Part shown: piece after piece, positions 17,788 to 29,818 of the stretch
Layout of the letters: every line of letters starts with the position of its first letter
How positions within the stretch are numbered: the first letter of the stretch is position 1
Notes under the pieces: generated by a model
Seen by the model: the letters and a program-made list of their open reading frames with translations, nothing else
Database searches by the model: none
Told to the model about the DNA's origin: nothing
Source of the DNA: Parabacteroides faecalis
GTDB taxonomy: Bacteria > Bacteroidota > Bacteroidia > Bacteroidales > Tannerellaceae
Assembly (NCBI RefSeq): GCF_022809355.1
Contig: NZ_JAKZMM010000019.1
Coordinates: 1-64,000, forward strand
Length of the DNA: 64,000 bases
Reading direction: 5' to 3'
Translations under genes and position numbers: made by a program

Positions 17788-19266
17788 TTATTTTGGAAGA
17801 GTTCCTGCCCAATCATTTTGTTCGACTCCAAAACCAGCATTTATTTCTGAACTAGGTATTGGGAAAACAAAATCTGAGATCTTATAATTATTATAAGTAA
17901 AAGATATATTGGGCGCAGCATTTGCATAAACGCTAGCAGTTTCATCCCATCGTCTCAAATCATATAATCTAAAGCCTTCTTGGAATAATTCACGGGCACG
18001 TTCGTTCTTGATAAAGGTCAATAAATCATTTGCGTTATTAGGTAAATTACTTGTAGAAGAGAAATCTGAATTACGACGAGCAACAACAAGCAATGCGTCT
18101 TTTGCCGCATTTAAATCTGCATTTGTACTTTTAACATTAGCTTCAGCTATGATTAAAAACATTTCAGGTGCATTCACTAAGTAATTGGTTGCGTAGGCAG
18201 AATTTCCTGTCGCATGTTGTCCGTATTTTCCACCTTTAAATACTGGGACTGTTTCCGAAGAACTTTCATCCCAAGCTATGATAGATTGACGACAGTCTTT
18301 TTCTCCATATAAAGAGAGTAATTTAGGACTCGGGCTGTAATTATAGGTTGACCATAATGTTCCCGAAGAATTGGCCGACCAGTTATCCGTTTGAGTAATT
18401 GCTAACGACAATAAACTTTCAGTATTTGATTCATTCCCAATAAATAATGCCTTATAAGCATCAGACGTATAAGTTAAAGTAGAAATACCTTTTTCGTCTA
18501 GAGCCTTTTGTGCGTTTGCTTTCGCTTCATCCCAATTCTCTAAATAAAGATTTGTACGAGCTAATAAACCATATACGGCTGCTTTATTAAAATAAAGGAT
18601 AGATCCTCTATCACCGCCAGCTGCATCAAAATATTTATTAGCGTTGTTCAAATCCGATAAGATAGCATTATAACTCTCTCCAACAGTGGAGCGAGACACT
18701 TTTGCTAGGGCTTCAATCGGTTCTGTAACAACTACTATACCCGGATTGGAAGAGTAGTCTGTACCATTAACTTTTACCTGGTGACAAAAAATATTTGTTA
18801 ACATCAACTGCGCATATCCACGTAACGCATACGCTTCTGCAATGCAGCGGTTCAATTCTGCGTTTTCTTCCTCAGAAACAGTTTCTGTCAAAGCTTCACC
18901 TGCTTTAATAATACGAGAAGATCCATCAATCACTTTATAGCCATATTCCCAAATATTCTTCAAGTATGTATCAGTATCTATTACGGTAAAGGTGTAGATG
19001 GCATCAAAATGACCTGTTTTACCATTCCAGTAAGAAATATCTGTAGGAATATCGCCAATACTGATAGCATAGTTTCCTGCAAATGCATAGTAAAACAGGC
19101 TATAATAAGTACCATTCAGGGCTGTCGAAATATTGTTAACGTTGGTCAATGCTGTTTCTGTGTCAATTCCCTTATAATAATCTGTTTCAAGGAATTTATC
19201 ACCACAAGCCGTAAGGCTTGTCATTAGCGTTAAGCCTACAACTACTTTTAATATGTTCTTTTTCAT
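17788..19266 (-). CDS. SusD/RagB-family lipoprotein, partner of the minus-strand SusC
   Basis: This outer-surface nutrient-binding protein pairs with the SusC gene 31 bases upstream. The signal peptide ends in a lipobox with Cys21 (SLTACGDK). Family features include helical repeats in the first half (RGYAQLMLTNIFCHQ, LLARTNLYLENWDEAKANAQKAL) and the C-terminal RagB block FIKNERARELFQEGFRLYDLRRW. The frame opens at a TTG at 19272, but ATG at 19266 gives the proper signal peptide. At 492 residues it is somewhat short for the family. A strong terminator follows. No enzymes accompany this pair, so the substrate is unknown. Confidence 0.93.
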   Translation of the reverse strand: MKKNILKVVVGLTLMTSLTACGDKFLETDYYKGIDTETALTNVNNISTALNGTYYSLFYYAFAGNYAISIGDIPTDISYWNGKTGHFDAIYTFTVIDTDTYLKNIWEYGYKVIDGSSRIIKAGEALTETVSEEENAELNRCIAEAYALRGYAQLMLTNIFCHQVKVNGTDYSSNPGIVVVTEPIEALAKVSRSTVGESYNAILSDLNNANKYFDAAGGDRGSILYFNKAAVYGLLARTNLYLENWDEAKANAQKALDEKGISTLTYTSDAYKALFIGNESNTESLLSLAITQTDNWSANSSGTLWSTYNYSPSPKLLSLYGEKDCRQSIIAWDESSSETVPVFKGGKYGQHATGNSAYATNYLVNAPEMFLIIAEANVKSTNADLNAAKDALLVVARRNSDFSSTSNLPNNANDLLTFIKNERARELFQEGFRLYDLRRWDETASVYANAAPNISFTYNNYKISDFVFPIPSSEINAGFGVEQNDWAGTLPK

Positions 19267-19297
19267 AAACAATGTCTTTTTAATAATTCAGATTCGA

Positions 19298-22200
19298 TTA
19301 GAATGTTAATTGAATACCTCCAATGAATGTACATGTAGCTGGATATTGCCAAGCAATTACACCGTTCGCCGATGTTTCTGGATTATAACCAATAAAATCT
19401 CCAGCAGTAAATGTGTATAAGTTATCAACAGATACATACGCACGTAAGCGTTGGATAAATGCTTTTTGTGTTAATGACTTTGGCAATGTATATCCTAAAG
19501 TAATATTACTTATACGCAGATAGTTCCCATTATATAAGAAACGAGATGAAGTTTGAGATGCTTTGTAGGGGTCTCCGTAAATATATTGCGGGTATTTAGC
19601 ATCTTTATTTTCTGGAGTCCATGAATTTAATGCAACATCTTCTAATGGCGTACGGAATGCCATGCCAAAGCCTGTAAAAGAAGCTCCTGAATCATATACT
19701 TTCCCACCTAAACGATAATTGAAATTGATATTGAAATCAAAATCTTTCCATGTCAGGTTTGTACCGAAACCTCCTAATACTTTAGGATCTGCATTTCCTA
19801 CATAACGTTTAGAAGCTGCATTATAGTCAGATGTTGTTTCATCTCCATCTTCATTCAAATACCATAGAGGCTTACCTGTTTCACGATCTACTCCGGCATA
19901 TTCTTTCATGTAAAACTGTGAATACGGACGACCTTGTTCAATAATTTGGAATGTGTATTCTAATGGTTCATCCGTAGAAAGTTTGATAACACGATTTTTA
20001 TTCCAAGTCAAATTAGCAAAGATGTTCCAAGTGAAATCTTTCTGTTGCATCAAAGATGCATTTACAGAAAACTCTATACCGCGGTTTCTAATTTTACCAA
20101 TATTTTGATAAGTAGTAGCCAATCCGGTTGTCATTGATAATGGAACTTCGAACAGAGCATCAGATGTTTCTTCATTGTAAAAATCAAAGCCTAAATTGAT
20201 ACGATTGATTAAAGATAAATCAAAACCAACATCTAATTTCTTAGAGACTTCCCATGTTAGTTCTCTGTTTTCAATACTGGTGGGTCGCATTCCTGGTATT
20301 TGGTTATAATTATATCCTGCTGAATAAAATCCACGAGCTGCATACCAGTCTATTTCCTGATTACCAACAGTTCCGTAAGAAGCACGAAGGGTAGCATTGG
20401 TTAATGTAGAATTATCAGCCAAGAAATCTTCTCCTGTCAAACGCCATTTACCACCAACAGACCAGAAATTACCCCAACGTTTATCTGCACCAAATACAGA
20501 AGAACCGTCACGACGGAATGAAGCAGAAGCATAATATTTATCAGCATAAGAGTAATGGGCATCCATAAAGTATGATGCCAAACGAGCCTCTTGTTTATAA
20601 TATTCTGAACCTTGTTCAGTTCCTGCTGTTGTCAAATCGCGCATACCATTAGAAGCAAACGGGAAATCTGATTTAGCAAAATATTCATAGTGGTAACTTT
20701 TCTTTTGCATTTCTTGACCAACCATGACACCTATATTATGCTTTTCATTGAATGTATAGTTCCATCCTAAAATATTATTCCAAGTAACTACACTACTTTT
20801 TGAATTATATAATTGACCAAGTCCATTATAGTCCATACCTTGCGGATTATACTGAGCACTCCAATATTGGTATTGAGTTTGGTCATTTAAGTTCACTCCT
20901 AACGTCGTTTTTGCATAGATGCCTTTACCAAAATCAATCTGCAAATAGGGATTCAAGTTTATCACTTGCATTTTAGTCTCATTTAATTCACCGCAAGTTT
21001 CATCAGTTAAAGCAAGCGGGTTGTATAAATTGACATTAGCATAATCTCCATTTTCATCATAGTACGGATACATAGGGAGCATACTAGAAATTGCAGCAGT
21101 TATAGGACTACTCATACTTCCACTAGTAGATAATGAAAATCCATTCTGTGTTGAATAACTATAGGATGTATTGATACCAATTGTAGCCCAATTGAATTTA
21201 CTATCCAAATTCAAACGTCCAGAGAAACGCTCTAAGTCTGAACTTCTAACAAGTCCTTCTGTATTCAGATAACCTAAACTAGCATAATACCCAGTATTAC
21301 CTTGTTTTCCTTGCAGATTTAAATTATAGTCTTGGTAATAACCTTTTCGTGTAATAGCATCCATCCAGTCATAAGAAGACTTACGATCCCATCCAAAGTA
21401 ATCGTCAGCTAAATAATTGTAAGCAGATTCTATTGTATATCTATCTGGATTAGAGGCAGCTAAACCGTTAGCGAACAAATTCATTGACTGTTGGGCATTA
21501 GCGAAGTCCATATTGTTGTTTGCCATAGAGACAAAACCTTGCTTAATGTCCAGATTGATATTAAACTTGCCTTCTTTACCCTTTTTAGTTGTTACGATAA
21601 TTACACCATTTGCTGCACGTGATCCATAGATTGCTGTTGCTGCTGCATCTTTTAATACCGTAATATTTTCAATGTCTGAAGGATTTAATGTTGACATTGG
21701 GTCTAATTGGTTGTTTGATTCTGAATTCAAAGAATTTTTATCCGTATCCGAATCAATAGGCATTCCATCTATTACATAAAGAGGTTGTGTTCCTGAATTT
21801 AAAGATCCACGACCGCGAACATAAATAGATCCCCAAACGCCAGGCATGCTTGACGAATTATTCATTTGGACACCAGGAACAGAACCTTCTAGTGCTTTTA
21901 CAAAATTAGCATCAGTCTTTTTAGATAAAACATCTTCACCAATAATAGAAGCAGCTCCTGTAAAAGATGCTTTCTTTTGAACGCCGTATCCCGTTACCAC
22001 GACTTCATCCAGCGCTTGTGAATCAGATTCCAATACGGCATTGATGTTCGAAGCAACACCTACTTGTTTTGTTTTCATACCTACGTATGAAATTTCCAAC
22101 TGCTTTCCATTAGAAGGCACATCTAATGTGAAGTTACCGTCAAAATCAGTTACAGTACCGATTGTTGTTCCTTTTACGACTACTGATGCACCAATTACCG

Positions 22201-22309
22201 GTTCGCCATTCTCGTCAAGAACCTGACCGGTTACTTTGGTGTTTTGAGCCATTACCGCAGTCATACCCATCAGCAGGCAAGCCGCAGTCATAGTAAACCT
22301 TTTCATCAT
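19298..22309 (-). CDS. SusC/RagA-type TonB-dependent transporter (minus-strand member of the mirrored pair)
   Basis: This outer-membrane transporter of 1003 residues has a signal peptide ending at about residue 22 (VMAQ), and a carboxypeptidase-regulatory-like domain at 23-105. The TonB-box/plug start is LDEVVVTGYGVQKKASFTGA, then come the plug to about 235 and the barrel ending GGIQLTF. It has no STN domain, unlike the first SusC in the window. Its first 80 residues are almost identical to those of the divergent SusC starting at 25041, and the DNA identity reaches into the 5' untranslated region. After the TonB box the two proteins diverge strongly. A good promoter lies at 22448-22478. Two ATG codons stand side by side at 22309 and 22306. 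It forms an operon with the SusD gene downstream. Confidence 0.95.
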   Translation of the reverse strand: MMKRFTMTAACLLMGMTAVMAQNTKVTGQVLDENGEPVIGASVVVKGTTIGTVTDFDGNFTLDVPSNGKQLEISYVGMKTKQVGVASNINAVLESDSQALDEVVVTGYGVQKKASFTGAASIIGEDVLSKKTDANFVKALEGSVPGVQMNNSSSMPGVWGSIYVRGRGSLNSGTQPLYVIDGMPIDSDTDKNSLNSESNNQLDPMSTLNPSDIENITVLKDAAATAIYGSRAANGVIIVTTKKGKEGKFNINLDIKQGFVSMANNNMDFANAQQSMNLFANGLAASNPDRYTIESAYNYLADDYFGWDRKSSYDWMDAITRKGYYQDYNLNLQGKQGNTGYYASLGYLNTEGLVRSSDLERFSGRLNLDSKFNWATIGINTSYSYSTQNGFSLSTSGSMSSPITAAISSMLPMYPYYDENGDYANVNLYNPLALTDETCGELNETKMQVINLNPYLQIDFGKGIYAKTTLGVNLNDQTQYQYWSAQYNPQGMDYNGLGQLYNSKSSVVTWNNILGWNYTFNEKHNIGVMVGQEMQKKSYHYEYFAKSDFPFASNGMRDLTTAGTEQGSEYYKQEARLASYFMDAHYSYADKYYASASFRRDGSSVFGADKRWGNFWSVGGKWRLTGEDFLADNSTLTNATLRASYGTVGNQEIDWYAARGFYSAGYNYNQIPGMRPTSIENRELTWEVSKKLDVGFDLSLINRINLGFDFYNEETSDALFEVPLSMTTGLATTYQNIGKIRNRGIEFSVNASLMQQKDFTWNIFANLTWNKNRVIKLSTDEPLEYTFQIIEQGRPYSQFYMKEYAGVDRETGKPLWYLNEDGDETTSDYNAASKRYVGNADPKVLGGFGTNLTWKDFDFNINFNYRLGGKVYDSGASFTGFGMAFRTPLEDVALNSWTPENKDAKYPQYIYGDPYKASQTSSRFLYNGNYLRISNITLGYTLPKSLTQKAFIQRLRAYVSVDNLYTFTAGDFIGYNPETSANGVIAWQYPATCTFIGGIQLTF

Positions 22310-22379
22310 AAATACACTTATTTATTAAACATATAAATATTCATTCCAAACTTTCAAATAGACTTAGTCCAAAACGAAC
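21990..22379 (-). repeat. Left arm of the SusC inverted repeat
   Basis: The arm pairs in inverse orientation with 24973-25360. Perfectly matching blocks are 22292-22347 (56 bases, covering the 5' untranslated end and the start codon) and 22101-22210 (110 bases inside the coding region); sequence between and beyond them is similar with scattered changes. Similarity stops just upstream of the GTTCGTTTTG at 22379-22370. Confidence 0.9.
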
Positions 22380-22447
22380 TACCACAAACCTATTTTTCAC
22401 TCCTCTAATACTCATTCCACTTTTGTCTTTTTCAATATTAGAGGCTG

Positions 22448-22478
22448 CAAAATTACAACAAAAAATGTAAAAATGCAA
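22448..22478 (-). promoter_or_regulatory. Promoter of the minus-strand susC
   Basis: On the minus strand TTG (22478-22476), a 20-base spacer and TAATTTTG (22455-22448) match the Bacteroides consensus. Transcription would begin near 22442 with a leader of about 130 bases. The promoter lies inside the segment bounded by the inverted repeats and points outward. No equally good match is seen in front of the other susC at 25041. Confidence 0.6.
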
Positions 22479-22759
22479 CGAATCATAAATTTAACAATCT
22501 AATCATTTACGTATTATCACACGAGATATATCAAAAAGTCACAAAATAAAACATTGTACCCCGTTATTTATACTCAATGATGTAACAATATTGTTTTGTT
22601 TATTACATTTTAATGTATTTTTGTTCGCCATAAATTTATGTCTTTTTTTCATATACACAATCATTTATCCCCTAAATGTTTTTATTTTCTTATTCTTTTC
22701 GTTGGATTTTACGTTCTTTTGGCTTGATCCCAAAGGATAAAAAAGTCATGATCAGATCC

Positions 22760-22920
22760 GTTCTTTTGCCTTGATGCAAAAGAACCAAAAAATCAAGGCT
22801 TACACTCCAAAGGCTACAAATTCGCTTCGTGAAGCTAAAATCTCGGAAAACTCGCCTTGGGCTCAGACAACCGAGATTTCTTCACGCTTCACTCGGAATT
22901 TGCTTTACGCCTTTTCCGTT
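22760..22920. repeat. Palindrome-rich intergenic repeat element (REP/MITE-like)
   Basis: Nested inverted repeats are packed here: GTTCTTTTG (22760-22768) with CAAAAGAAC (22777-22785), GCCTTGAT (22768-22775) with ATCAAGGC (22792-22799), GCTTC/GAAGC at 22824-22835, and AAATCTCGG (22838-22846) with CCGAGATTT (22871-22879). The outer parts (AAAGGC.. near 22810 and ..GCCTTTT near 22915) also pair imperfectly, so the whole can fold into one long branched hairpin. The base composition differs from the AT-rich surroundings. It has the look of a dispersed non-coding repeat, but only one copy is in the window. Confidence 0.55.
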
Positions 22921-23022
22921 AGGCCAAATCGGTCGACATTAATAATAACTTTTCTTTATTTCATATAAAAATATACGTTCTTTTATAGAATAATAGTACT
23001 ATATATTGTCATATTTCATGTA

Positions 23023-23712
23023 TTACCCCTTTTCAAATGGCAAGCGTTCTACCGAGTTGAAATATTGTTTCAATAGCCATTCCTGAGCTTTAAGTTTGAT
23101 CATAGACTGGCGATAATCTTTGCTGGTGTGCCGGTCGTTTTGTGGTCGCCAGTGCTCAAAGAGCGCCATAGCGTTTAGCTTTTCTTCCAGACTGTTACGA
23201 ATAATCCCCCGACTTTGTAGTTCTTGGTATAGGATGCTGGCTAAAGGAATTTCTGAATCCGGTTGAGCTTTGTAGGCATGAAAGCGTCTGCTTATCAGAC
23301 GATTCATACATTCATCATTGTATTCTTGGCTCACAGAAGGCAAAGCTTTGACATTTTTTCTCTGTTCCATTTGTTTGATAACCCGATACCGAAAATCACT
23401 CATTTTATAGCCTTTCAACCATTTGCAAAAGGTTCTGTAATTCAATCCGACGTAATCGCCAAATTCTTCTTTGACTCCCAGCTCAAAACAGATGGAAAGT
23501 TCTTCTAGCCGTAAAAAACTATAACTTTCGTAGAGATCACTGGTCAGTTTGGCTGCCAGCAAAGTAAGTTCATGTGTCTTAGGTATTTTAAATCCCAACA
23601 ATACATACGTGTCAGACAGCAGATCAATCATTCTTTTCTGAACAAACTGATTTTCAAATTGTATAATTGGAGGCTGTCTCAATGCCATTTGTAAACGAAT
23701 ATCCAAAGCCAT
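23023..23712 (-). CDS. Protein of unknown function, overlapping and downstream of the DUF4373-type gene
   Basis: This is a 229-residue soluble protein that I do not recognise. It is mostly helical and basic, without a signal peptide or membrane span. The segment around residues 85-120 (NYRTFCKWLKGYKMSDFRYRVI) could be a small DNA-binding helical unit. It overlaps the upstream DUF4373-type gene by 59 bases in another frame, which suggests translational coupling and joint function. The frame extends to a TTG at 23721; ATG at 23712 is taken, and ATG at 23688 is another candidate. By position it could act with its partner in replication or DNA handling, in the way phage initiator/helicase-loader genes are paired, but nothing in the sequence proves this. 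Confidence 0.7.
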   Translation of the reverse strand: MALDIRLQMALRQPPIIQFENQFVQKRMIDLLSDTYVLLGFKIPKTHELTLLAAKLTSDLYESYSFLRLEELSICFELGVKEEFGDYVGLNYRTFCKWLKGYKMSDFRYRVIKQMEQRKNVKALPSVSQEYNDECMNRLISRRFHAYKAQPDSEIPLASILYQELQSRGIIRNSLEEKLNAMALFEHWRPQNDRHTSKDYRQSMIKLKAQEWLLKQYFNSVERLPFEKG

Positions 23713-24664
23713 TGTTTTCAAACATTTTTTGGGTTAATAATTTTGCTTCTGCCGCCACTTCCATCATCTCTTCGTATCTGGATTTTTGTGCTGCCGGCTT
23801 GTTGATCTTGACTTGTGGCATTGCAGCTGTTTTGGTACCGGCTAAAATCTGCACATCCGTTTCCCAATGATGATACCGCCACCAGGCGATGAACTTGGAT
23901 TGATAATCCTTCTTTGTTCTGACCGTATCTTCAAGTGCCCTCAACAGGTTGAAATCATCAAAGCAGGTCATGGCGTTATGAGCTTTTTCCAGCAATAACG
24001 ACCCCTTACCACTGATACGAATCAGCCGGGTACACCAGTTTTCATCATTCAGCAGATCCATTTTCCACTGATCCCATAGATCTTTTAATTCCGATTGATC
24101 ATTTTCGCGCGTGTGTGCGCTACTCTCTCTCTCAATTATAAATATACTTTCCTTTTCTTTACTATCCTTTACTTTACTTTGTGTACTTTCTGCGGTTTGA
24201 ATTGGCGTTTCAGCTGCGGAAATGCAGGTTTCATCTGTGTTAACCGATTTTTTTTCTGTAACTTCTTCTTTCGCTACTGTGATCGGAACGAGCAGATATT
24301 GTTGTTCTAATTTCTTTTCATTGAGGTAACGGCCTTTTGCTGCCATGTAGCGTTCTTGAATAGCTTTGGAAGTCAAGATGCCTTCTTCCCACAAGGCAGC
24401 ATCAAACAAACCAATTTCAACCATGTAGTCAAGCATGGATTTCACTTCGGTGTCTTCGATATCCAACTGGTCCGACAAATCGAACAAATAATCCTTGTCG
24501 ATTTGTACATAAAATGAACTTTCATAGATATCACACAAAAGCATAAAATAAAGAAGGACACCCGGCGTTTTAAGCTTTTTCATCAAACGCCGTATTTTGA
24601 TATCTTTCAATACATGGATGTCCATTGGGAAATAATCCAATCCTAATTTTACTGGGCGTGCCAT
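23654..24664 (-). CDS. DUF4373 (Lin1244/Lin1753-like) domain protein, possible replication-initiator-like factor
   Basis: The first 110 residues match the DUF4373 type (start MARPVKLGLDYFPMDIHVLKD, then a winged-helix-like region with LLYFMLLCDIYESSFYVQID). This domain occurs in phage and mobile-element proteins related to DnaD-like replication organisers. A low-complexity linker rich in Thr, Glu and Lys (about 135-185) leads to a C-terminal helical part with WKMDLLNDENWCTRLIRISGKG and a FIAWWRYHHWE stretch, similar in layout to DnaD-type proteins. Direct repeats with a 22-base period and a DnaA box lie just upstream. That suggests the protein could bind them as an initiator or autoregulator; this is inference. 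The following gene overlaps its 3' end. Confidence 0.75.
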   Translation of the reverse strand: MARPVKLGLDYFPMDIHVLKDIKIRRLMKKLKTPGVLLYFMLLCDIYESSFYVQIDKDYLFDLSDQLDIEDTEVKSMLDYMVEIGLFDAALWEEGILTSKAIQERYMAAKGRYLNEKKLEQQYLLVPITVAKEEVTEKKSVNTDETCISAAETPIQTAESTQSKVKDSKEKESIFIIERESSAHTRENDQSELKDLWDQWKMDLLNDENWCTRLIRISGKGSLLLEKAHNAMTCFDDFNLLRALEDTVRTKKDYQSKFIAWWRYHHWETDVQILAGTKTAAMPQVKINKPAAQKSRYEEMMEVAAEAKLLTQKMFENNGFGYSFTNGIETASNYTI

Positions 24665-24764
24665 AATAATTATCAGGACAAGTTTTTATGGGTTCGGCAA
24701 CAGCGCCTCTTCCTCTCTTGTCACGAAACAAAAATACGGTATCCCAAAATCGTAGTGTTGACGT

Positions 24765-24798
24765 GTGTCGCCCAATGTCGCTCAGTGTCGCCCAATGT
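24765..24798 (+). repeat. Two direct repeats with 20-base period
   Basis: GTGTCGCCCAATGT occurs at 24765-24778 and again, identical, at 24785-24798. The period of 20 bases is about two helical turns. The second copy runs straight into the DnaA box. Confidence 0.8.
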
Positions 24799-24804
24799 GG
24801 ATAA
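24796..24804 (-). promoter_or_regulatory. Consensus DnaA box
   Basis: TGTGGATAA on the plus strand is the exact complement of TTATCCACA, the consensus binding site of the initiator DnaA. One nine-base match can occur by chance about once in two windows of this size, so its weight comes from the adjoining repeats. Confidence 0.45.
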
Positions 24805-24837
24805 AAAGTCAAAAGCCGGCGTATTTTCTCTAAAAGG

Positions 24838-24889
24838 TAGGCATGAAAAGATAAAAACATAGGCATGAATTTATAGAAAGGTAGGCATG
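24838..24889 (+). repeat. Iteron-like array: three TAGGCATG repeats with 22-base period
   Basis: TAGGCATG starts at 24838, 24860 and 24882, exactly 22 bases apart. Copies 1 and 3 share the longer GGTAGGCATG and copies 1 and 2 share TAGGCATGAA. Such spacing on one face of the helix is typical of iterons bound by replication initiators in plasmids. They lie about 175-225 bases upstream of the DUF4373-type gene. Confidence 0.75.
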
Positions 24890-24972
24890 TTTTTCCATCC
24901 TTATTTTTAGATGTAGCGAATTTATTAAAGTATATCCTATCATTCGCTGTCCCTTCCCCGATTAAATATACT

Positions 24973-25360
24973 GTTCGTTTTGTACTACGTCTATTTAGAA
25001 AAGGAATGAATATTTATATGTTTAATAAATAAGTGTATTTATGATGAAAAGGTTTACTCTGACTGTAGCCAGCCTGTTGATGGGTATGACTGCGGTAATG
25101 GCTCAAAACACCAAGGTAACCGGTCAGGTTCTTGATGAAAATGGCGAACCGGTAATTGGTGCATCAGTAGTCGTAAAAGGAACAACAATCGGTACTGTAA
25201 CTGATTTTGACGGTAACTTCACATTAGATGTGCCTTCTAATGGAAAGCATTTGGAAATTTCATACGTAGGTATGAAAAAAGTAGAAGTTGGCGTTTCTTC
25301 TCGCGTAAAAGCTGTATTGGAATCTGATTCACAAGCGTTGGATGAAGTGATGGTAGTTGC
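24973..25360 (+). repeat. Right arm of the SusC inverted repeat
   Basis: This is the inverse copy of 21990-22379. Perfect blocks are 25003-25058 (56 bases across the start codon) and 25140-25249 (110 bases). Just upstream, the short variable stretch (24995-25002) differs from the left arm by a small deletion and substitutions, exactly where the left arm has an AAAGTTTG. Confidence 0.9.
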
Positions 25361-28214
25361 TTATGGTACTGCCAAGAAATCTGCTTTTACAGGTTCTGCT
25401 GCTACGATTAAAGATGAAAAGATTACTTCTCGTCAGACTTCTAACGTGACGAATGCTTTGGCTGGTCAGGTAGCCGGTGTACAGACAACTAGTAGCACAG
25501 GTCAGCCGGGTAAAGATGCAACGGTTCGTATCCGTGGTATCGGTTCTATTTCTGCCAGCAATACTCCGTTGTATGTAGTCGATGGTGTTCCTTATGATGG
25601 TGAGATCTCAGCTATCAGTACTTCTGATATTGAGTCTATGACAGTCTTGAAGGATGCTGCTTCAAATGCCTTGTATGGTGCACGTGGTGCCAATGGTGTT
25701 ATCTTGATTACGACCAAACGTGGTAAGACGGGTGATGCCCGCGTTACTTTCGATGCTAAGTGGGGTGTGAACAAACGTGGTGTTCCTTCATATGAAACAG
25801 TAACAGATCCGGGTAAGTTCTATGAAATGGCTTATTCTGCTATCTATAATGGTGACTTGAAGGGCTATGCAGCTGCAGGTGATTTGGTTAATGCCAATGC
25901 TTATGCCAATAAAGCAATGTTGTCAGCTTCATACCTAGGATATCAAGTATTTACTGTACCGAATGGGGAACAGTTGATCGGTATGGACGGCAAACTGAAT
26001 CCGAATGCAACATTAGGTTATTCAGACGGTACTTATTATTATACTCCGGATAATTGGAGCGATGAGTTGTTTGAAAACAATACACGTCAGGAATATAACT
26101 TGAGCGTGAGTGGCGCCAACGACAAGATGAACTATTATATGTCTGCCGGTTATCTGGATGATCAGGGTATCGTTCCGAACTCAGGTTTCCAGCGCTATTC
26201 AGCTCGTTTGAAAGCAGATTACCAGGTAAAACCTTGGTTGAAGATGGGAGGTAACATCTCATTTACACACTACGATAGCCGTGAGCAAGATTTGGAAAGT
26301 AGTACTTCGAATGCGAATGCTTTCTACGCAGCCAATATCATGGGAGCCATCTATCCGATGTATGTTCGTGATGCTGCCGGAAACATTATGACTGACAATC
26401 GTGGTTATTTGCGTTATGATTATGGCTCAGATACAAACTTTGAACGTAGAAATGTCGTTCCTAATGCGAATCCATTGGCAAGCTATATGCTGGATATGAT
26501 GAGATATTCTGGTGATGTAATCAGCGGTAAGTGGTTTGCAGATATCGATATCTGGGGTGGTATCAAAGCAAAGATCAATATTGGTGTGGATGCCAATAAT
26601 GTACGTTATACCAATATGACGAACCCATTCTATGGACAATATTCTGAAACAACTGGTGTGGGTGGTTTGATTTCTGTAGCTTCTGAGCGTACGTTCAGTA
26701 CCAACCAGCAATATTTGTTGACTTACAACAAGACATTCAATGATGTACATAATTTGGATGTATTGGCAGGTCATGAAAACTACAATTACAAATACCAGTA
26801 TTTGTATGGTTCACGTGAAAAAATCTACAATCCAGATGTTCCTGAATTGAACAATGGTATTTTGAACCAGAACAATGCTTCATATACAAACAACTATGCA
26901 ACAGAAGGTTGGTTGTTCCGTGTACAGTACGATTATGATGGCAAGTACTTCGGTTCTGCTTCTTATCGTCGTGATGCTTCTTCAGCCTTCCATCCGGATA
27001 ACCGTTGGGGTAACTTCTGGTCAATTGGTGGAGGTTGGTTGATGAACAAGGAAGCCTTCCTGGAAAACCAGAAATGGATTGATATGTTGAAATTTAAGAT
27101 CAGCTACGGTTTGCAGGGTAATGATAATTTATTGTATCAGAATGGTTACCGAAATTATTATCCGTATATGGATCAATATAATTTATCAAACAATAATGGA
27201 GATTTTGCAACTACTTTGTATTATAAAGGTAATCAGGATATTACCTGGGAAACTTCACACAGTTTCAATACCGGTTTCGACTTTACCTTCTGGGGTGGTA
27301 AGTTGAGCGGTGCTGTGGAATATTTCTCTCGTAAGACAACCGATATGCTTTACTTCAAACCAGTTGCTTCTTCTATGGGATACTCTCGTTTCCCGGAAAA
27401 TGTAGGATCTATGGTGAACCGTGGTGTTGAATTGGATTTGAATTCAAACATCATCAATACAAAAGATTTTACATGGGATATCAATTTCAACTTGACTCAC
27501 TTCAAGAACAAAGTATTGGAATTGGCTCCAGAGTTGAATGGACAGTTGATTGATGGTAGCCGCATTTACCGGGAAGGTGAATCTATGTATCAGTTGTATT
27601 TACCGAAGTATGCAGGTGTAAATCCGGAAACTGGTGAAAGCCAATGGGCTTTGACTGAACCGAATGCAGCAGGAGAGACTGTTACAACTTCTTATACAGA
27701 AGCTTCATCTAACCGCTTTGCTACAGGCGATATTCTGCCGAAGGTATATGGTGGTTTCGGTACTAGCTTGACATTCCATGGCTTTGATTTCTCAATTGCA
27801 TTTGCTTATCAATTAGGTGGACGTATTATGGATAACACTTATCAAAGTTTGATGGATATTAGTTCACAAGGTTCTGCATGGCACGTAGATATGTTGAATG
27901 CTTGGACTGCAGATAATAAGAATACTGATGTTCCGCGTTTGAACGTACAAGATACATTTACTGGATATTCTTCAGATCGTTGGTTGACAAGTTCTGATTA
28001 CTTGAGCTTACAGAACATTACTTTCGGTTATACATTACCGAAATCTTGGACACGCAAGTTACAGATCGACGGTATCCGTCTGTATTTCGTAGCTGATAAC
28101 GTAGCCTTGCTGACAGCTCGTAAAGGTTTAGATCCTCGTCAGAGCTATACTTCTGCGGACAATGTATATTCACCGATCCGTACGATTTCTGGCGGTATTT
28201 CATTGAATTTCTAA
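25041..28214 (+). CDS. SusC/RagA-type TonB-dependent transporter (plus-strand member of the mirrored pair)
   Basis: This is a 1057-residue outer-membrane transporter without STN domain. The signal peptide ends near residue 22 (VMAQ), and the carboxypeptidase-regulatory-like domain covers 23-105. The TonB-box/plug start LDEVMVVAYGTAKKSAFTGS marks the end of strong similarity to the divergent SusC at 19298-22309. The plug contains the usual VRIRGIGSI and TPLYVVDGVPYD motifs, and the barrel ends GGISLNF. The SusD gene follows 23 bases later. Since the signal peptide and N-terminal domain are shared with its mirror copy but the ligand-facing plug and barrel are not, recombination of the 5' ends could change which barrel is expressed. 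Confidence 0.95.
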   Translation: MMKRFTLTVASLLMGMTAVMAQNTKVTGQVLDENGEPVIGASVVVKGTTIGTVTDFDGNFTLDVPSNGKHLEISYVGMKKVEVGVSSRVKAVLESDSQALDEVMVVAYGTAKKSAFTGSAATIKDEKITSRQTSNVTNALAGQVAGVQTTSSTGQPGKDATVRIRGIGSISASNTPLYVVDGVPYDGEISAISTSDIESMTVLKDAASNALYGARGANGVILITTKRGKTGDARVTFDAKWGVNKRGVPSYETVTDPGKFYEMAYSAIYNGDLKGYAAAGDLVNANAYANKAMLSASYLGYQVFTVPNGEQLIGMDGKLNPNATLGYSDGTYYYTPDNWSDELFENNTRQEYNLSVSGANDKMNYYMSAGYLDDQGIVPNSGFQRYSARLKADYQVKPWLKMGGNISFTHYDSREQDLESSTSNANAFYAANIMGAIYPMYVRDAAGNIMTDNRGYLRYDYGSDTNFERRNVVPNANPLASYMLDMMRYSGDVISGKWFADIDIWGGIKAKINIGVDANNVRYTNMTNPFYGQYSETTGVGGLISVASERTFSTNQQYLLTYNKTFNDVHNLDVLAGHENYNYKYQYLYGSREKIYNPDVPELNNGILNQNNASYTNNYATEGWLFRVQYDYDGKYFGSASYRRDASSAFHPDNRWGNFWSIGGGWLMNKEAFLENQKWIDMLKFKISYGLQGNDNLLYQNGYRNYYPYMDQYNLSNNNGDFATTLYYKGNQDITWETSHSFNTGFDFTFWGGKLSGAVEYFSRKTTDMLYFKPVASSMGYSRFPENVGSMVNRGVELDLNSNIINTKDFTWDINFNLTHFKNKVLELAPELNGQLIDGSRIYREGESMYQLYLPKYAGVNPETGESQWALTEPNAAGETVTTSYTEASSNRFATGDILPKVYGGFGTSLTFHGFDFSIAFAYQLGGRIMDNTYQSLMDISSQGSAWHVDMLNAWTADNKNTDVPRLNVQDTFTGYSSDRWLTSSDYLSLQNITFGYTLPKSWTRKLQIDGIRLYFVADNVALLTARKGLDPRQSYTSADNVYSPIRTISGGISLNF

Positions 28215-28237
28215 TCTGTTAATTGTATTTAGAGTAT

Positions 28238-29818
28238 ATGAAAATGACAAATAAATATTTGATGTTCGTTAGTGCCGCTTTATTATTGGCTTCTTGCGAT
28301 TTGGATAAGCTTCCAGAAGGTCAGTATGTAGGTGGTGAACAAAATGAAGGCGTTATTGAACAACGTCCTAATATGACAGTCGCTGCTGTAAATGGTATGG
28401 CTGCCAAGTTAAATGCCTTTGCTACGGTTTCTACACCGGAAAATCCTGATCATAACGATTATGGCCTTGCTGCAGTCCATCAAGCTTTGGAACAAGGTGG
28501 ACAAGATATGCCTTGTACAACATCTGGTTATAATTGGTTTAATCGTTGTCAGAATTATGCAGACCGCCTTTATACTAGTTCTGAAGATGAATTGATTTGG
28601 AAAATATTCTATAATCACATGGATGCAGCAAATAAGGTTTTGTTGTTGACCGAAGGAACTGAAGATCCTGAAATGTTGATTTATAGAGGACAGGCTTTCG
28701 CTGCACGTGCTTATGATTATCTGAGTCTCGCTCAAGCTTATCAGTTTACTTATGCTGGACACGAGAATGCTTTGTGTGTACCTATTGTTACGGAAAACAT
28801 GACATTGGAAGAAAAACAGAACAATCCTCGTGCTACAGTTCAGCAGGTATATGATCAGATCATGAGCGATTTGAGTCAGGCTCTTGATTTATTAGCTGGT
28901 TATGATAATGGTTCTAACAAAGACAAGATTGATGAGTCTGTAGCTTATGGTTTGCGTGCCCGTGCTAATCTGTTGATGCAGAAATGGGCTGAAGCAGCCA
29001 GTGATGCAGAAAAGGCTATTGCCGGTGGTACTCCGCAGTCTTTGGCAGAAGTTTCTAAACCGACATTCAACTCTGCTTCTGCAAGTTCTTGGTTATGGGG
29101 TGTTTTGATTACTCCGGATAACGATGTTGTAACAACAGGTATTATCAACTGGCCGTCTCACTTGTGTTCATTGACTGGTAACGGTTATACCACATTGACG
29201 GATTCATTCCGTTATGTAAGTTCAGCTTTGTATGACCAGATTCCGGATACAGATATCCGTAAGCAATGGTTCATCTCTCCGGAAGGAACATCTACATTGG
29301 TTGACAATGAAACAGTAGATGGTACTCCGGTTATCGAATACTTCGGTTTGTCTCCTTACACCAACGTGAAGTTCGGTGCTTATCAGGATGTGATGGGTAA
29401 TACAACCAACTCACAAGACTGGCCTTTGATGCGTGTTGAAGAAATGTATCTGATCAAGGCTGAAGGTGAAGCTATGTCGGGTAACCTGACTAAGGCTAAA
29501 CAGACACTGGAAGACTTCGTGAAGACTTATCGTAACCCGTCATACGCTTGTACTGCTTCTTCTGCTCAGGAAATGCAGGACGAAATCTGGTTACAGCGTC
29601 GTATGGAATTGTGGGGTGAAGGTTTTGCCTTGTTCGATATCCTGCGTCTGAAGAAACCGATTATCCGTAAGAACACAAACTACGAAGCAATCGTTCAGTT
29701 CAATCTGGAACCGGAATCTCAGATCATGATTTATCGTATTCCGCAGTGCGAAATGGAAACTAACAAAGGTATCAAAGAAGAAGACAACAACCCGGCTGCT
29801 CCGCAACCGACTGTATAA
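28238..29818 (+). CDS. SusD/RagB-family lipoprotein, partner of the plus-strand SusC
   Basis: This is the surface glycan-binding partner of the SusC just upstream. The lipobox ends at Cys20 (LLASCDLDK), with acidic residues after the cysteine. The family architecture is complete: an N-terminal SusD-like region with helical repeats (YGLRARANLLMQKWAEAASDAEKAI) and a C-terminal block with RVEEMYLIKAEGEAM and WLQRRMELWGEGFALFDILRL. The frame opens at a TTG at 28223; ATG at 28238 is preferred, with another ATG at 28244. It is 526 residues long. There is no glycosidase in this unit, and the next gene is convergent with only 41 bases between and no obvious terminator hairpin. Confidence 0.94.
   Translation: MKMTNKYLMFVSAALLLASCDLDKLPEGQYVGGEQNEGVIEQRPNMTVAAVNGMAAKLNAFATVSTPENPDHNDYGLAAVHQALEQGGQDMPCTTSGYNWFNRCQNYADRLYTSSEDELIWKIFYNHMDAANKVLLLTEGTEDPEMLIYRGQAFAARAYDYLSLAQAYQFTYAGHENALCVPIVTENMTLEEKQNNPRATVQQVYDQIMSDLSQALDLLAGYDNGSNKDKIDESVAYGLRARANLLMQKWAEAASDAEKAIAGGTPQSLAEVSKPTFNSASASSWLWGVLITPDNDVVTTGIINWPSHLCSLTGNGYTTLTDSFRYVSSALYDQIPDTDIRKQWFISPEGTSTLVDNETVDGTPVIEYFGLSPYTNVKFGAYQDVMGNTTNSQDWPLMRVEEMYLIKAEGEAMSGNLTKAKQTLEDFVKTYRNPSYACTASSAQEMQDEIWLQRRMELWGEGFALFDILRLKKPIIRKNTNYEAIVQFNLEPESQIMIYRIPQCEMETNKGIKEEDNNPAAPQPTV

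Follow-up and report, generated by a model that had tools for sequence, protein, structure and literature searches.

Does a single promoter serve two divergent susC-susD operons in Parabacteroides faecalis, turning from one to the other by DNA inversion? The window, as the whole stretch of 64,000 bases analysed here is called, covers positions 1-64,000 of contig NZ_JAKZMM010000019.1 (C19; 77,135 bases) in a draft genome of 4.3 Mb and 104 contigs. Both operons are complete. The minus-strand operon consists of the susC gene P0001 (19298-22309; TIGR04056, 862 bits; Pfam Plug and CarbopepD_reg_2) and a susD gene directly after it (17788-19272; Pfam SusD_RagB and SusD-like_3), and the plus-strand operon of the susC gene P0002 (25041-28214; TIGR04056, 826 bits) and its own susD gene directly after it (28223-29818; Pfam SusD-like_3 and SusD_RagB). 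By TIGR04056, both susC genes are full length. The 2.6-kb segment between the operons is, with a probability of roughly 0.8, an invertible promoter element, flipped site-specifically so that either SusC/SusD pair (SusCD) could be transcribed. A recombinase would pair two inverted 17-bp sites in the leaders (22365-22381 and 24971-24987) and flip the segment, and the single outward promoter would then drive the minus-strand or the plus-strand operon. No reading frame would be altered, because the sites lie 5' of the ATGs. With such an either/or promoter, a cell would display one transporter or the other.

The 5' ends of the two susC genes are mirror images. The left arm (21941-22347), which holds part of the leader and the first ~370 coding nucleotides (nt) of P0001, is 88% complementary to the right arm (25003-25409); the arms measure 407 nt and are separated by 2655 nt. 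The initial annotation had described mirrored susC 5' ends with gap-free perfect blocks of 110 nt (22101-22210 / 25140-25249) and 56 nt (22292-22347 / 25003-25058), and both blocks were recovered, together with shorter ones of 37, 28, 24, and 20 nt. It had overlooked an additional 24-nt arm (22356-22379 / 24973-24996; 92%) that contains most of the likely crossover site. Homology drops to chance level past ~22380 and ~24972 on the segment side and fades by about codon 120 on the gene side. Compared with the window genome, the left arm matches the right arm with 523 bits and its next-best place with 72.5 bits, so the arms exceed the usual conservation of SusC N-termini.

Inside the segment lies a candidate promoter on the minus strand (22448-22479), composed of GTTG (22476-22479), 20 nt, and TAATTTTG, with the -7 box at 22448-22455. 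It stands 139 nt from the ATG of P0001 and would stand ~137 nt from that of P0002 after inversion. The -33 element of such promoters is TTTG. The -7 consensus quoted for Bacteroidales promoters is TAnnTTTG (PMC4747536). The window spacer contains a single match to the pattern KTTG-N19/20-TANTTTTG, directed at P0001, which is the gene faced by the promoter in this assembly; no promoter of this pattern is directed at P0002 from the spacer. This single match upholds the earlier statement that one promoter lies inside the segment and faces only the minus-strand susC. Inverted repeats thus flank a promoter, the arrangement by which invertons are recognised. Looser scoring within 700 nt returned four 9/10 matches toward the minus gene and none toward the plus gene; such matches arise in 0.16-0.44 of shuffles, and the loose score by itself has no evidential weight.

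The evidence that carries the invertible element comes from other genomes of the genus Parabacteroides, labelled here by G numbers, with G000 for the window strain. The search of the genus with the mirrored arm covered 38 genomes, the window's own included, and 36 of them had a match at E<=0.001. Divergent pairs were counted among the stretches examined if both susC starts lay within ~3 kb on one contig, which gave the window, G002, G003, G004, G005, and G026. G010 was aligned but excluded from the pairs, its starts being 9.9 kb apart with another susC body in between, and the extra downstream susC copy of G002 was kept out of the G002 spacer. KTTG-N19/20-TANTTTTG occurs exactly once per spacer in all six pairs. 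It points at the minus gene in the window and G002 and at the plus gene in G026, G003, G004, and G005; these directions use contig strands, and the contigs of G004 and G005 run in opposite senses.

Two comparisons capture the inversion itself. Between G004 and G005 the flanking blocks are collinear, at 99.31% (3779 bp) and 99.57% (3680 bp), and the promoter-bearing spacer (575 bp, 99.65%) is inverted, with the break within AGTTCATACAGAACTAC. GTAGTTCTGTATGAACT, a 17-bp site of the type TAGTTC-N5-GAACTA that lies 74-83 nt 5' of the two ATGs, contains the breakpoints. Judged from these alignments, a homologous element has flipped between near-identical congener loci, and its exact crossover site is open to testing. 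G002 and G003 share minus-side susC proteins that are 94% identical and differ in their plus-side genes; beyond the leaders, their spacers are homologous in inverted orientation only (342 bp, 74%, E 2.6e-27). The two comparisons read as two separate inversion events, that between G002 and G003 being the older, and in both of them the homologous kind of element is seen in both orientations.

The window itself can be set against two relatives. Beyond the leaders, only a 54-bp stretch at the window promoter aligns to a relative's spacer, namely to the promoter region of G026 (80%, E 1.5e-5, opposite orientation). This match is inverted relative to the P0002-type susC that the two loci share, and the G026 promoter faces the P0002 orthologue. 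The pair in G002 consists of the same two kinds of susC (47% to P0002 and 45% to P0001), and there it is the P0002-like gene that the promoter faces, in contrast to the window. The initial annotation had proposed that one promoter is carried from one susC gene to the other on an invertible segment, with both frames intact, a proposal at odds with one fixed orientation in all relatives. Orientation differs within G004/G005, G002/G003, and window/G026, and these opposite orientations support such a segment.

Candidate crossover sites of the G004/G005 type are present at both ends of the window segment. The left site, TAGTTC-GTTTT-GGACTA (TAGTTCGTTTTGGACTA; 22365-22381, minus strand), agrees with TAGTTC-N5-GAACTA at 11/12 positions and lies 72 nt 5' of the minus ATG. 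Its class and position are those of the G004/G005 breakpoint site, and Markov shuffling gave it a P of 0.0003 for a 150-nt leader. The right site, CTGTTC-GTTTT-GTACTA (CTGTTCGTTTTGTACTA; 24971-24987, plus strand), lies 70 nt 5' of the plus ATG. The N5 core GTTTT is identical in the two sites, which stand in mirrored register. In G003 both ends carry a 12/12 site; in G002, G004, and G005 a single end does. When 40 susC leaders were scored (six of them from BLAST starts, not start codons), 11 reached at least 11/12, seven, including the right site of the window, reached 9-10, and 22 reached 7-8. Eight of the 11 best belong to the counted pairs and three lie outside them (L044 19424, L051 5885, and L053 264). 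The 17-bp leader site, not the 400-nt arms, is probably the crossover, and we infer that the weaker site pair of the window would be used as in G004/G005.

Several points weigh against this reading. The right site matches at only 9/12 positions, with a P of 0.09 taken alone. In G026 the sites reach 8/12 on both sides, no better than background, and their positions rest solely on the alignment of the susC pair. The site is not enriched genome-wide, with nine places at <=1 mismatch versus 27 for the reversed-pattern control. The promoter pattern is post hoc, having been fixed after the sequences had been inspected. The nearest homologue of the invertase is split in the window genome, as described below, and is broken in G026 too. 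Finally, the long mirrored arms are not constant in the system: the coding arms of G002 (68% alike) and G003 (72%) fall off after ~20 codons. As far as the six pairs indicate, the short site and one promoter per spacer are what stays constant in the system, not the long arms.

The long arms appear to have a history of their own. Within a genome, the first 240 coding nt of the two susC genes are 95% alike in the window, 97% in G026, and 86% in G004 and G005, and the window and G026 are 75-76% alike to each other. Over coding nt 600-1500, the two susC genes of one genome are 46-68% alike (window 48%, G026 64%). Because the arms are alike within a genome, divergent between the window and G026, and joined to different gene bodies, they evolve in concert. 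The long coding arms are probably homogenised within each genome by gene conversion.

The initial annotation was correct that the window holds no recombinase. Contig C19 has no match to PF00589 (tyrosine recombinases) or PF00239 (serine recombinases), and no P0005-type recombinase was found on the rest of C19 (64001-77135) at E<=1e-5. The whole window genome has 37 PF00589 matches, fragments included, and three PF00239 matches. P0005 is a tyrosine recombinase with arm-binding, SAM-like, and catalytic domains. A recombinase of this type lies in the same examined stretch as the pair in four of the five other pair genomes (G002-G005), and also in at least nine stretches with susC shufflons; in G015 and G033, unbroken copies and susC arms are on separate contigs. 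At E<=1e-50, P0005 has no match in 12 of the 38 genomes, and its sole match in the window genome is a piece on contig C53. A recombinase of the P0005 family presumably acts, or acted, on the window sites from elsewhere in the genome.

The closest homologue in the window genome comes in pieces. P0005 has 35 matches there, the best two partial (55% and 50%) and the others at 22-43%, those of the latter above 37% spanning just 55-63 residues; no intact P0005-type recombinase was found among the 35. The closest pieces correspond to residues 105-247 on contig C40 and 225-389 on C53, and both break at the box around FSCYTGLRFSD, which we take to be a catalytic box. In G015, one intact P0005-type gene stands between a phosphorylase-superfamily gene and genes for an ABC ATPase and an AA_kinase, the last presumably argB. 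The window genome has these neighbouring genes divided: those for the ABC ATPase and the AA_kinase adjoin the C40 piece, that for the phosphorylase the C53 piece. The C53 piece also has two integrases beside it, and ~2.5 kb separate the C40 piece from a ParA-like gene. The simplest reading is that an integrative element was inserted in the invertase gene of the window strain, although a rearrangement would have the same appearance in a draft assembly. G026 has this gene too, again with the ABC ATPase beside it, and it is broken there at the HVARH box, ~420 nt from a contig end. Since the nearest invertase homologue is split, the switch in the sequenced strain may currently be fixed with its promoter toward the minus-strand operon, or it may be served by another recombinase.

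Truncated recombinases share a feature at their broken ends. The end sequence GGTAAYGATTTRGAAACCASCGGRCTTCTC (<=3 mismatches; none in the reversed control) directly follows truncated recombinase SAM-like genes at all six of its places in the 38 genomes (L204-L209; G001, C40 and C41 of G000, G017, G026, and G032), two of which supplied the search pattern. The break comes after [AR]RH codons in five places and at the first catalytic box in one. This pattern would fit elements with a preference for inserting into recombinase genes. A catalogued self-splicing intron was considered as the foreign sequence and rejected, as Rfam at E<=0.1 gave no intron at seven truncated-recombinase loci; it gave four tRNAs, and BTnc005 and snoTBR5 below their gathering scores. 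No missing C-terminal parts were found downstream of four truncated recombinases, a weak negative over stretches of ~15.7, 5.4, 2.2, and 0.7 kb, and for G032 the queries failed to match even the N-terminal part.

The alternative that survives best is a promoter that was formerly invertible and is now fixed, with the invertase split by an inserted element, the sites and arms left as relics, and only the minus-strand SusCD expressed. It agrees with the invertible element on the past and differs on the present, and it deserves serious weight at somewhat less than even odds. It gains from the P0005-type pieces on C40 and C53, flanked as they are by the genes that surround the intact G015 copy, from the integrases and the ParA-like gene near them, and from the low score of the right site. 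However, the 95% identity of the window arms over the first 240 coding nt implies recent exchange or conversion, an intact member of the 36 other PF00589 matches, some of which are fragments, could substitute for the split enzyme, and an element within the invertase gene might leave again. A bolder extension, which we regard as unlikely at present, is a two-state transporter switch under a mobile second layer, in which an integrative element lodged in the catalytic region of the invertase gene would keep the promoter locked and, by leaving, release it. The split invertase would then illustrate a possible way for mobile elements to freeze phase variation; one literature search returned no case of an element within an invertase gene locking phase variation among its titles and abstract openings.

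Homologous recombination by RecA between the 407-nt arms, which the initial annotation had named alongside a distant invertase, fares worse and is improbable. The long arms with their perfect 110-nt block and a contig without a recombinase speak for it, but the G004/G005 exchange occurred in the 17-bp leader site. The coding arms of these two genomes are only 86% alike over 240 nt, and the two arms differ in the part of the leader that separates the site from the ATG. Moreover, the arms of G002 and G003 fade after ~20 codons, yet their spacers are mutually inverted. Least probable of all is the absence of any switch, that is, an inverted duplication whose 5' ends stay similar through gene conversion or through selection on the signal peptide and leader: gene conversion alone would suffice for the concerted arms, but this leaves unexplained both the inverted G004/G005 spacers with breakpoints at the site and the inverted spacer homology of G002 and G003.

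As an invertible promoter element, the window segment would carry passengers. These are P0003 (23654-24664, minus strand), a Lin1244_N/DUF7833 protein (Pfam PF14297 and PF25200), and P0004, or orfB (23023-23721, minus strand), an open reading frame with no match in Pfam or NCBIfam at E<=0.001. This module would enlarge the segment from ~0.6 to ~2.6 kb and invert along with it. P0003 has five copies in the window genome at E<=1e-40, the window copy counted. A similar gene pair stands before a susC in G034, where a P0004 relative at 35% comes after the P0003-like gene. Short direct repeats lie 5' of P0003 (24766-24889; Tandem Repeats Finder), with TGTCGCCCAA in 3.3 copies and a 22-nt unit containing TAGGCATG in 2.6 copies; neither repeat was found in the stretches examined around the four other P0003 copies, one copy of the four beginning 331 nt from a contig end.

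Three further observations concern related sites and genes. On contig C17 of the window genome, sites of the same class as those of the window form another inverted pair, AGTTC-GGGAT-GAACT, with a spacing of 584 bp (69894-69910 and ~70478-70494; L194 9895 and 10479). A full-score promoter, TTTG-20-TATGTTTG, lies within this pair and is directed away from a DUF3868 gene that starts ~330 bp beyond, which marks the C17 element as a possible invertible promoter in its OFF orientation. In G002, two susC 5' ends with an identical leader are directly repeated (L042 8659-9759 and 10235-13261), the first copy being cut off at ~367 amino acids and possibly serving as a spare. Outside the genus, Phocaeicola barnesiae (L152) has a P0002-like susC body with 90% identity, its first 74 residues missing at a contig edge.

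Within Parabacteroides, a close comparison is with susC shufflons (L089-L108, e.g., in G001, G004, G006, G008, G011-G014, G018, G020, G025, and G037). In these, headless susC bodies start at AGTTCYGCAAAGACTCTGGT or close variants, at about codon 66, beside complete susC genes. Many of the stretches contain a P0005-type recombinase, and three G001 contigs terminate exactly at the AGTTCYGCAAAGACTCTGGT site, which occurs at <=1 mismatch in 13 of the 38 genomes. The shufflon resembles the window in having the same recombinase family nearby and a site that starts with the same AGTTC arm. It differs in the place of that site, which lies within susC and would exchange gene bodies, whereas the window sites lie 5' of the ATG. 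A shufflon was rejected for the window, where both susC genes are complete and AGTTCYGCAAAGACTCTGGT has no copy in the genome at <=1 mismatch.

Known systems beyond Parabacteroides offer further parallels. Among the titles and abstract openings examined, which leave the subscription literature mostly uncovered, no description appeared of a SusC promoter common to two divergent operons. SusCD is named among invertible loci (PMC12632263, PMC10939037), and inverton groups have been linked to invertase groups (PMC11892184). In Bacteroides fragilis, three SusC/SusD clusters, along with nine further regions, are inverted by a single invertase, Tsr0667 (PMC4747536). Tsr0667 and the window would be alike in site-specific inversion that switches SusC/SusD pairs and in an invertase that acts, or would act, on distant regions. 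However, Tsr0667 is described as driving shufflon-type multiple inversion (PMC4747536), whereas the window would have one flipping promoter between two complete operons. Bacteroidales invertons such as the Mpi-controlled capsule promoters share with the window a promoter between inverted repeats and the -7 element TAnnTTTG (PMC4747536, PMC12632263, PMC11892184). Invertons are described mostly as ON/OFF switches (PMC10939037), whereas in the window each state would serve another operon. The window thus joins the SusC/SusD inversion systems already known from Bacteroidales, its own layout being an either/or choice between two complete operons.

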